Source of the DNA: Methylococcales bacterium
Lineage (GTDB): Bacteria > Pseudomonadota > Gammaproteobacteria > Methylococcales > Methylomonadaceae
Assembly: GCA_026399015.1 (NCBI GenBank)
Contig: JAPLRS010000040.1
Location: 62,001 to 126,000, forward strand
Direction of reading: 5' to 3'
DNA length: 64,000 nucleotides
Shown here: positions 41,519 through 62,486 of the stretch, piece after piece
Layout of the letters: each line of letters starts with the position of its first letter
How positions within the stretch are numbered: position 1 is the stretch's first letter
The notes under the pieces: model-generated
Databases searched by the model: none
Seen by the model: the letters and a program-made list of their open reading frames with translations, nothing else
Told to the model about the DNA's origin: nothing
Position numbers and translations under genes: made by a program

Positions 41519-42145
41519 TTAAGCATCAAGTATGTTGATGGCAGTTTCGCAGCTTACTTGGTCTTCTTCGGTATTGCATATAAAATGCGCCAGTCTTTCA
41601 ATGGCTTGCCAGTAAATTGGCGCATTAACAAATTCAAAAGCCTCTTTAAGTAGGCGGGTCATTTTTGCTGTTTGGCGTTGTTTGTCGGCAATAAAGTTTT
41701 CTAAATATTCCTGAATGGTTTCAAGGTCGGATGTGCCGCCATATTCATGTAAAACCTCAAGACTAATGTTGTCTAAAGCGAATGTTTGCTTGTTTTTTAA
41801 CGCGATATATTTGGCTTCGGCCAGCGGGCCGGCTAGCAAATTAACAATATCAGCCTCAAACGCACATTTAAAACTGTCTTGTTCGCTAGTGCTATAAAAC
41901 TGACTACTTTCAAGTATGTTAAAAGGTAGGTTTTGGATTAAACGACCATCCTCAATTCTGGCAACATACTCATTGTGTGTCTGGTTTCTTAAATTTATTT
42001 GAAAGAATACGGGGGGTAGATTTTTTCTGAGATTACTAAGGTGAATAGCGGCTGCATGTCCTGCTTCATGAAAAGCAATTTGTAATGAGGTGGTCTGTTG
42101 GTTTAAAGCGTTAGGAGTTTGATTGTTTAAGTAATTCCGTTTCAT
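41519..42145 (-). CDS. M41-like zinc peptidase-domain protein
   Basis: Protein of 208 residues resembling the peptidase domain of FtsH alone, without the AAA+ or membrane parts. HEAGH lies at residues 26-30 (two zinc His and the catalytic Glu); the third ligand may be an acidic residue in ADIVNLLAGPLAEAKY (about 95-110). No signal peptide is seen. Small M41-like proteins of this type are mostly uncharacterised. The GAGGCGAG ribosome-binding site lies in front of GTG/ATG at 42148/42145. The 5' region carries an RNA unit ending in an intrinsic terminator 18 bp before the start, so expression may be attenuated. Confidence 0.75.
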   Translation of the reverse strand: MKRNYLNNQTPNALNQQTTSLQIAFHEAGHAAAIHLSNLRKNLPPVFFQINLRNQTHNEYVARIEDGRLIQNLPFNILESSQFYSTSEQDSFKCAFEADIVNLLAGPLAEAKYIALKNKQTFALDNISLEVLHEYGGTSDLETIQEYLENFIADKQRQTAKMTRLLKEAFEFVNAPIYWQAIERLAHFICNTEEDQVSCETAINILDA

Positions 42146-42162
42146 CACTCGCCTCGCAAAGT

Positions 42163-42252
42163 AAAAAAAAAGCGGGCAATATATTGACCGCTCAAGGGGA
42201 AGGATTGTAAAACTGTGACACCTTTAGGAGCAGTGAGCTCATCACGAGTTGG
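42163..42252 (-). ncRNA. Twin RNA A (small RNA or leader of the M41-like gene)
   Basis: Minus-strand unit of about 90 nt. It begins CCAACTCGTGATGAGC, has a short GAGC...GCTC hairpin, then CTCCTAAAGGT. It ends in the hairpin AGCGG-TCAATATATTG-CCCGCT followed by nine T. The promoter region holds TACTATCCT at -10 and two adjacent palindromes (42286-42317). Sequence and layout are shared with the unit at 42580-42664. The T-run lies 18 bp before the M41-like start, so it may be a 5' leader/attenuator or a separate sRNA. CTCCT is complementary to Shine-Dalgarno sequences, a common sRNA feature. Confidence 0.55.
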
Positions 42253-42285
42253 GTATAGGATAGTATGAAATAAGTTATCTGAAAA

Positions 42286-42317
42286 TGTGACATATTGTCG
42301 CGCGACAAAATGTCGCA
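42286..42317 (-). promoter_or_regulatory. Double palindrome upstream of RNA A
   Basis: TGTGACATATTGTCGCG (42286-42302) and directly adjoining GCGACAAAATGTCGCA (42302-42317). The first lies at -33 to -50 from the expected start of RNA A, the same place as the single site at RNA B; this is an activator-like position. Confidence 0.6.
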
Positions 42318-42322
42318 GATTT

Positions 42323-42338
42323 TGGCATACTATCTGCT
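42323..42338 (+). promoter_or_regulatory. Isolated sigma-54-like element near palindrome pair 9
   Basis: TGGCATACTATCTGCT has GG-N10-GC spacing (9 of 12 fixed positions) and ends in CTGCT like the elements at 50198 and 51354. It points right, toward the pair, with the next plus-strand gene (zur-like) nearly 500 bp away and antisense to RNA B. Function doubtful. Confidence 0.3.
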
Positions 42339-42417
42339 ATATATTATCTTCCCCTGCTGTGAATTGAGTTAATCTTCAGGTTTTTGGGCGTTTTATGCAT
42401 TTTTATCTTAATACAAA

Positions 42418-42465
42418 GTGTGTGATATCACGCAGTTTTATTAAAAAGTGTGTCATATGACACAC
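42418..42465. promoter_or_regulatory. Palindrome pair 9
   Basis: GTGTGTGATATCACGCAG (42418-42435) and perfect GTGTGTCATATGACACAC (42448-42465), centres 30 bp apart. They sit between RNA B and RNA A. The left copy has symmetric changes (C to G, G to C) that keep the dyad. Confidence 0.65.
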
Positions 42466-42579
42466 TTTTCTTGCTTAGTGCTCATTGTCTAGGCTATCAG
42501 TCATAAATCATGAAATTTTAGTTTCCCAGACCAAACTAAAGTGATGGAGCTTGCTACTTTAGTGTGAAAAACGTTAGGC

Positions 42580-42664
42580 AAAAAAAAGCGGTCAAGGCGA
42601 CCGCTTAAGGAGAAAGTTTTGTAACTCAGAGACCTTTAGGAGCGGAGCGCTCATCACGAGTTGG
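42580..42664 (-). ncRNA. Twin RNA B (small RNA candidate)
   Basis: Minus-strand unit of about 85 nt, homologous to RNA A. It has CCAACTCGTGATGAGC at the 5' end, a GAGCG-CTC-CGCTC hairpin, CTCCTAAAGGT, and a terminator AGCGGTC-GCCT-TGACCGCT followed by eight T. A TATGAT -10 box (42669-42674) fits a start at about 42662-42664. The next gene on that strand is 430 bp away, so this copy is free-standing. The terminator stem differs in sequence from RNA A yet stays paired, which supports a conserved fold. Confidence 0.6.
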
Positions 42665-42697
42665 TTATATCATAATGTTAAAATACTATTTTTAAAA

Positions 42698-42714
42698 TGC
42701 GACATATTGTCGCA
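42698..42714 (-). promoter_or_regulatory. Palindrome upstream of RNA B
   Basis: TGCGACATATTGTCGCA, a perfect 8-bp dyad around one base, at about -35 to -51 from the expected RNA B start. The same element precedes RNA A. The regulator is unknown. Confidence 0.6.
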
Positions 42715-42770: not shown

Positions 42771-42787
42771 ATGTTATATTATAACAT
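42771..42787. promoter_or_regulatory. Zur box at the zur promoter
   Basis: ATGTTATATTATAACAT, close to the gammaproteobacterial Zur consensus (TGTTATANTATAACA), 39 bp before the Zur-like start. It implies autoregulation by zinc. Confidence 0.75.
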
Positions 42788-42825: not shown

Positions 42826-43329
42826 ATGAACTCAAAAGTTAAAATTGATCAGATTCCCGTAAAAAGTGTAGTCCATGATCATAATAAGTGTGTCTCAGAA
42901 GCTTTAAGTGTGGCTGAAAACTTGTGCATGGTGAGAGGGGTACAGTTAACGGCTATTCGTCATCAGGTTTTAGAGTTGATTTGGGGAAGTCATAAAGCAG
43001 TTAAAGCTTATGAATTGTTGGATCTTATTAAACCTTTACAAAATGCTGCAAAACCGCCCACTATTTATCGCGCTTTAGATTTTTTGCTTGAGCAAGGTTT
43101 AATTCACCGTATAGAAAGTCTTAATGCTTTTGTGGGCTGTAATTGTTCGGGTCATCAGCATGATTTGTTGCTATTAATCTGTAAGCAATGTCATGAGGTT
43201 GAAGAGCGTCCCGCTTTAAAAGTTATGTCTGCTTTAACGCAAGAATTTACGAACGCAGGTTTCGTGACACATAGTCAAGCAATTGAAGCACATGGTCTTT
43301 GTGCTAAATGTACTGAGGATAGCGTTTAA
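42826..43329 (+). CDS. zur: Zur, zinc uptake regulator (Fur family)
   Basis: Zinc-sensing repressor of 167 residues. The winged helix carries RHQVLELIWGSHKAVKAYELLD and the Zur-specific AKPPTIYRALDFLLEQGLIHRIES. Structural zinc ligands are Cys119, Cys122, Cys159 and Cys162. Further Cys/His (Cys105, Cys107, His110, His112) fit a regulatory site. The whole C-terminal EAHGLCAKC is Zur-like rather than Fur-like. A Zur box overlaps its promoter and another precedes the TonB receptor gene, so it probably governs itself and the zinc locus that follows. Alternative starts exist upstream of no clear ribosome-binding site; ATG 42826 is used. Confidence 0.92.
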   Translation: MNSKVKIDQIPVKSVVHDHNKCVSEALSVAENLCMVRGVQLTAIRHQVLELIWGSHKAVKAYELLDLIKPLQNAAKPPTIYRALDFLLEQGLIHRIESLNAFVGCNCSGHQHDLLLLICKQCHEVEERPALKVMSALTQEFTNAGFVTHSQAIEAHGLCAKCTEDSV

Positions 43330-61623: not shown

Positions 61624-62486
61624 AATAAAACTCCTTGTATAACTGATGTATTTATCATTTGTAGCTAATAACTCGAATTTTAGGCGTAGCTATTCATTAG
61701 GGCATTAGGATTTTAATGGTGATATTGCCAACATATCATGGAACACTTGAGAGTGAGCTGTCGCTCACTGGTGCTTCCCTTTTGGTCAGCACCTTTTTCT
61801 TCTTTCAGGCTGATTTCAGGTTAATTTTTTACTGTCATGATGTTGTTGAATGCCACTAGCAATATAGAGCTTATATTCAAGAAGATATTGCCCGTGGGAC
61901 TATCTTCATCTAGATTACGATTTACGAACTTTTGCCCCCTTTCGGGAGCAAAAAAATAATTTCATCTGAGTTGACTTCATTACCTAGCGTTACACTAATC
62001 ACAGAGGCGGTTGGCCAGTACCTCGAAGTGCGTCTTTTGTTTCTATGTTCCAACGGTGGCATTAGGAAAATACGCTAGTCATATTCCTAATACGTCTGGG
62101 AATTACCCAGTCTTTTAGCCTTCTTTTTATATTCAAATTACCGAAATTGGTTTTACTTAAGGCGTATCCAATCATCATCCACAACACGAGGTGTGGGTAG
62201 TCAGTAAAGTCGCTGCTTTTGCTCAGCTGTTACGCTCAATGCGAAGAACATTCCATTGCCAACGGCACCTATCAATCTACCGGTGCGAGTATTTCAAAAG
62301 TGTTTGCCTAGGTTGTTGCCTGGTGTGCTTACTGGTTTTGAAAGGAACCAATCAACCTTCGCCTAATTCTTTCTTTATTACTTTTATTTAGCAAAGTTAT
62401 ACAAAAGGGCCCAAAAAAGCCCCAAAAAAGCCGTTTTTTTACTGTTTTTTGTCTTACGAGCTAAATAAAGTAAAGGAGTTAAAGAG
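61624..62486. other. Gene-free stretch with several strong inverted repeats
   Basis: No convincing gene in 860 bp. Paired elements are present: GTGAGC-TGTC-GCTCAC near 61752-61767, then GGTGCT...AGCACC ending in TTTTTCTTCTTT (61770-61805, a plus-strand terminator); TTTTGC-CCCC/GGGAGCAAAA near 61930; ATTAGGAA...TTCCTAAT near 62062; CTGGG-AATTA-CCCAG near 62096; and CCACAACACGAGGTGTGG near 62178. The density of stems suggests one or two structured RNAs or remains of a mobile element. A 66-codon frame at 62191 is low complexity and not supported. Confidence 0.45.

Follow-up and report, generated by a model that had tools for sequence, protein, structure and literature searches.

We analysed a stretch of 64,000 nucleotides from a Methylococcales bacterium, in the following called the window. 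Its minus strand carries two short units, unit 1 at 42163-42252 and unit 2 at 42580-42664, which sit between the gene of a Zur-like regulator (42826-43329, plus strand; product at 138 bits vs. a cut-off of 167 in the profile search) and a gene with a HEAGH motif (open reading frame, ORF, at 41519-42148, minus strand) directly behind unit 1. The 5' core is common to both units, and each has a CU-rich linker, a terminator, and at least one palindromic operator. The window also shows two adjacent palindromes between the units (GTGTGATATCACGC and GTGTGTCATATGACACAC, 42415-42468) and a perfect GTTATANTATAAC 5' of the Zur-like gene (42773-42785), which resembles a Zur box; with two mismatches allowed, its matches in the window are at chance level. 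Further off, at 62135-62291 (minus strand), a Polynucleobacter-1 RNA (RF01718) scores 59.9 bits, i.e., above the gathering score of 37.

A first-pass annotation of this DNA had claimed a shared 5' core, intrinsic terminators, and palindromes at about -35 to -50 for both units. The core is confirmed by the 16-nt start CCAACTCGTGATGAGC, which occurs exactly at 42237-42252 and 42649-42664 (both minus strand), and by an ungapped direct repeat of 91 nt with 78% identity (42211-42301 vs. 42623-42713) that spans core, promoter, and palindrome. With up to three mismatches, the window holds one further match of CCAACTCGTGATGAGC (three mismatches; chance mean 0.16). The terminators are present as well, each a stem with a T run behind it (minus strand), located at 42163-42192 in unit 1 based on sequence and folding, and at 42580-42606 in unit 2, whose terminator is the only one of the two listed by the terminator scanner. 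The linkers, AAUCCUUCCCCUU in unit 1 (42194-42206, minus strand) and CUUUCUCCUUAA in unit 2 (42605-42616, minus strand), are putative seeds that are conserved in the family described below and unpaired in the folds, except for the 3' end of the latter, which abuts the terminator stem.

Putative RNA starts lie near CCAACTC or CTAACTTTT; we count operator positions from the first C of CCAACTC. The operator GCGACA-NNN-TGTCGC has its cores at 42699-42713 in unit 2 and, in unit 1, at 42287-42301 (one change) and 42302-42316. The palindrome search thus places the operator of unit 2 (42698-42714) and the proximal operator of unit 1 (42286-42302) with their centres at -42, and a distal operator of unit 1 only (42301-42317) at -57. 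No further match with up to two mismatches is found in the window; still, the operator count alone is weak evidence, since 2/100 shuffles also yield three matches. A putative -10 box of unit 2 (TATGAT, 42669-42674, minus strand) comes from a promoter scan that is weak on its own, as four promoter-like sites were found vs. 2.8 expected. That of unit 1 (TATCCT, 42257-42262, minus strand) is placed by sequence, in the register of the repeat with unit 2.

To follow the units through relatives, the 146-nt region of unit 2 was compared with 301 genomes of the order, 74 of which match, some over the full length (same genus) and many in the operator only. From 12 sequences we built a covariance model (R1), later refined (R2). 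R1 finds unit 2 with 85.5 bits and unit 1 (at 42164-42252) with 76.1 bits, each being itself one of the model's sequences; we call the RNAs family A. The covariance model search in Methylococcales, which the first-pass annotation had proposed as a check, detects family A in 199 of the 237 genomes of the GTDB family and in all of its 29 genera, with one to seven copies each (E 0.01). Among named records, the model matches, e.g., Methylobacter, Methylomonas, Crenothrix, and a symbiont of Bathymodiolus, so that the window most likely stems from a methanotroph of this group. The genome of the window holds a third copy with operator (G000:C45:164376-164463; L069, L220). Among 321 sampled genomes of the class, the refined model matches two, both of them members of the GTDB family, and no others (E 0.001), and 13 operator-bearing loci of clearly other lineages (L092, L097-L100, L106, L110, L112, L116, L120, L122, L140, L150) show no family A model match. 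For other families of the order, weak refined-model matches occur in 4/74 genomes, one of them being L210. The remaining three (L207, L208, L209; three other families of the order) were rejected as family A: near 1501-1590 they show what looks like a different C-rich, sRNA-like element, which contains TTCTCCTCCTCTTTGGCGACC, ends in a strong terminator, and has no operator and no Rfam match at threshold.

Both units fold better than expected, with z-scores of -2.9 and -2.6 (1/200 and 3/200 shuffles, respectively, fold equally well). The small hairpin that had been annotated with a differing but still pairing stem has to be corrected: its inner stem GAGC/GCUC is identical in both units and only the loop differs. 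It is the outer stem that differs between the units and, according to folding, still pairs. In the unfitted alignment of 12 sequences, 6/18 pairs change on both sides, which is reached by 5/500 shuffles, and the covariation score is reached by 1/500; RNAalifold predicts for this alignment the terminator alone and no other structure. Among 88 distinct sequences, 15/18 pairs change on both sides (0/500 shuffles reach this), in an alignment that was fitted to the covariance model and thus leans towards it. The 5' stem is part of the minimum-energy fold of 73 of the 88 sequences, and the CU linker is conserved and on average unpaired among them. The free CU stretch which is more strictly conserved in relatives is the linker 5' of the terminator (AUCCUUCUCUU-like), and CTCCTAAAGGT is often swapped for other C-rich loops. 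A lack of conserved paired stems in relatives had been named as what would speak against the units; the stems are kept and covary. With an own promoter (as judged from sequence), an intrinsic terminator, and a conserved structure, the units resemble trans-encoded sRNAs in these features.

We also located the operator in front of 43 family A units from the model matches, using the pattern GYGRCA-NNN-TGYCRC with at least 11/12 fitting positions. Its centre is at -42 in 42/43 units, at -57 in 30/43, and at -59 in 2/43. When compared with the boxes that PMC5506826 gives for RegR and PrrA, family A promoters resemble RegA-class boxes in sequence: the RegR box is found within one mismatch in 26/43 promoters vs. 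5/2150 shuffles, the PrrA box in 33/43 vs. 9/2150.

In the genome of the window, one RegA-like regulator stands out (189.8 bits, next 65.7) and adjoins a RegB-like kinase, for which the best NCBIfam model listed is ActS/PrrB/RegB with 212.8 bits, i.e., below the cut-off of 350; both proteins score under the curated NCBIfam cut-offs. The translated kinase contains GGASNPI, the quinone motif named for RegB of Methylomonas sp. DH-1 (PMC13274454). Since 231 of the 237 genomes of the GTDB family have a RegB-like match (E 1e-20; none above the curated cut-off), correlating the presence of RegB and of the RNAs is uninformative. A perfect operator is found in 20 of 39 sampled regB upstream regions (19 are without), with 110-354 bp between the closest one and the kinase match; 66/3900 shuffles reach the threshold. 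In 19 of these 20 regions the operator is followed by a second sRNA, family B, that points away from regB; in the regB region L269 the nearest operator has no family B RNA and two farther ones do.

Family B shares operator and spacing with family A, with an operator-to-start distance of 32-34 nt in 25/25 pattern-found sequences. Its pairs covary (8/17 change on both sides, 1/500 shuffles), given an alignment in which four sequences are misaligned at the 5' stem. The family occurs in 143/237 genomes and 22/29 genera (covariance model, E 0.001). Where both places are listed, 54/86 genomes have it in divergent orientation less than 1 kb from regB (median 196 nt), and the other 32, the genome of the window included, do not have it beside regB: its family B copy (G000:C41:18106-18202, L300) has an operator and lies away from regB, and its regB region holds no operator copy. 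Rfam yields no family at gathering score for the unit region of the window or for the 14 loci checked, and literature searches, which covered mostly openly accessible journal papers, showed no description of these RNAs. Families A and B are thus two sRNA families of familiar type that have apparently not been described before.

Outside the methanotroph family, the operator precedes various protein genes. When named genomes were scanned for the tandem operator, at least 118 stretches came up, of which 80 loci were examined. In 11 of them the next gene is a TonB-dependent receptor (profile search), e.g., in Nitrosomonadales, Ferrigenium, Nitrotoga, Methylophilaceae, Amphritea, and the BD1-7 clade; L112, L122, L129, L136, L138, L147, L150, L154, and L166 are among the loci of other proteobacteria where the tandem operator stands directly before the receptor. 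A RegB-like kinase is listed for 7 of the 80 loci and a RegA-like regulator for 6 of these 7; the operator is at most 90 nt from the kinase ORF in L106, L102, L147, and L130, 299 nt in L168, and several kb in L154 and L098. Copper was considered as the signal and dropped: ten operator-linked receptors spread over several NCBIfam groups, none above cut-off, and the match of the L112 receptor to OprC, its only match among solved structures, is a lead only. A tandem operator of the window's own genome (L217, 5549-5578) stands before a putative secreted protein of 109 aa without family match, and an ORF similar to it follows the tandem operator in L090.

Given these observations, RegB/RegA is the likely regulator of both units, as far as sequence comparison can tell. 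The strongest alternative keeps the sRNAs as real and lets another DNA-binding protein read the operator, with the proximity to regB reflecting a target or a mere neighbour. ChIP in Methylomonas sp. DH-1 shows RegA at feo and not at tbdr or tonB, these three promoters being the ones covered (PMC13274454). Unlike the family A promoters, feo, the sole direct RegA target reported for a related methanotroph, shows no such operator in relatives: none of 20 feoA upstream regions has one, DH-1 not being among them. RegA may thus recognise several kinds of site, or else a different protein reads the palindrome. The feoA regions that were inspected show a Fur-box-like sequence instead. Furthermore, RegA-class sites are described as degenerate in PMC4263372 and PMC5506826, both of which report failure to arrive at a strong motif, whereas the operator here is strict. 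On the other hand, the operator is linked to regB in many genera as well as to RegB in named genomes outside the family, and it matches the RegR and PrrA boxes. Another candidate would be CRP, whose sites read TGTGA-N6-TCACA; we set it aside on spacing, as the operator has N7. We consider a regulator other than RegA unlikely, if still worth keeping in mind.

A further alternative concerns the function of unit 1, which ends 15 nt before the HEAGH gene. It could chiefly be a cis-acting leader, at whose terminator transcription mostly stops and conditional readthrough expresses the gene, with unit 2 as a duplicated leader. We took a census of 84 distinct family A units with enough flanking sequence, asking for an ORF of at least 80 aa that starts within 75 nt. 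In favour of a leader, 22/84 units, unit 1 included, have a HEAGH ORF 3-19 nt behind them. Other ORFs follow 5/84. In contrast, 57/84 are free-standing, i.e., without such an ORF, unit 2 being one of these; moreover, copies occur in tandem succession and the same CU linker is kept in HEAGH-linked and free-standing units. A leader as the main role is thus rather improbable. That the units are non-functional dispersed repeats, which the several and tandem copies per genome might suggest, is very improbable, as compensatory changes and the fixed operator position indicate selection. Likeliest is a trans-acting sRNA family in which some members double as leader of a HEAGH gene, as unit 1 may do. 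The HEAGH-motif protein itself (about 209 aa), repeatedly placed behind a family A RNA, has no match in NCBIfam (E 1e-4) or Pfam (E 0.01) and a single, chance-level one among PDB sequences (E 0.37).

Our preferred reading, to which we assign a probability of roughly two in three, is that units 1 and 2 are sibling trans-acting sRNAs of family A that are switched by RegA via the operator and repress at ribosome-binding sites via their CU linker. The first-pass annotation had spoken of sibling sRNAs under one activator; the comparative data, i.e., conservation, covariation, and fixed operator, along with the predominance of free-standing units and an Hfq encoded in the genome, support both the siblings and the shared regulator. 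According to the proposed mechanism, each unit has its own promoter with a 17-bp palindromic operator near -42, in the usual place of a -35 box, and many family A copies have a second one at -57. RegA of the RegB/RegA redox system would most likely bind there and switch the RNAs on, activation being suggested by the operator's occupying the place of the -35 box. The RNA would consist of the conserved 5' stem, the free CU-rich linker, and the terminator, whose long T run would suit binding by Hfq. Most likely, ribosome-binding sites, being purine-rich, are what the free CU stretch pairs with, and such pairing would repress translation; a search of the own genome for complements of the seed gave eight matches, none convincing as a target. 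Sister family B shares this operator geometry and often lies back to back with regB.

Among known systems, the sibling copies with a CU-rich motif recall CcsR of Rhodobacter, and the oxygen-responsive regulator of FnrS of E. coli offers a second parallel, with the difference that no Rfam family reaches its gathering score at the loci checked. PcrZ of Rhodobacter sphaeroides is a PrrA-dependent sRNA, and a consensus site for PrrA lies in its promoter (PMC8139620). It resembles family A in being an sRNA with a promoter box of a RegA homologue, and thus sets a precedent for an sRNA under a RegA-class regulator, but differs as a single alphaproteobacterial sRNA that represses photosynthesis genes. 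Methylomonas sp. DH-1 belongs to the methanotroph group considered here and shares its redox two-component system. There, RegB/RegA is reported to govern growth on methanol as well as the uptake of iron; the paper leaves room for an indirect route to tbdr and tonB and gives the intermediary for unbound genes as unidentified (PMC13274454); a term search of the available text of that paper returned no mention of sRNA, motif, or palindrome.

A bolder extension of our reading, which we hold tentatively and regard as possible rather than probable, is that RegB/RegA acts largely via RNA, that the operator is older than the RNAs, and that these may have taken over a metal- and redox-responsive regulon. 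If so, the sister sRNA beside regB and the one to seven sibling copies would form a main part of the RegB/RegA regulon, and the sRNAs would be the intermediary by which RegA affects genes that it leaves unbound, e.g., in DH-1, the operons of tonB and of the TonB-dependent receptor. It is in line with this extension that in nitrifiers, iron oxidisers, and other methylotrophs the operator often stands before TonB-dependent receptors, one of which has the copper receptor OprC as its nearest solved structure.

In summary, a redox-sensing system probably switches both units. With its shared operator and its sister family beside regB, the conserved sRNA family A provides a concrete and testable candidate for the RegB/RegA intermediary. 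The palindrome is likewise a clear candidate for the operator of RegA-class regulators, whose sites have so far resisted definition (PMC4263372, PMC5506826). If the redox control holds true, RegB/RegA would gain an RNA-based way to control other genes.
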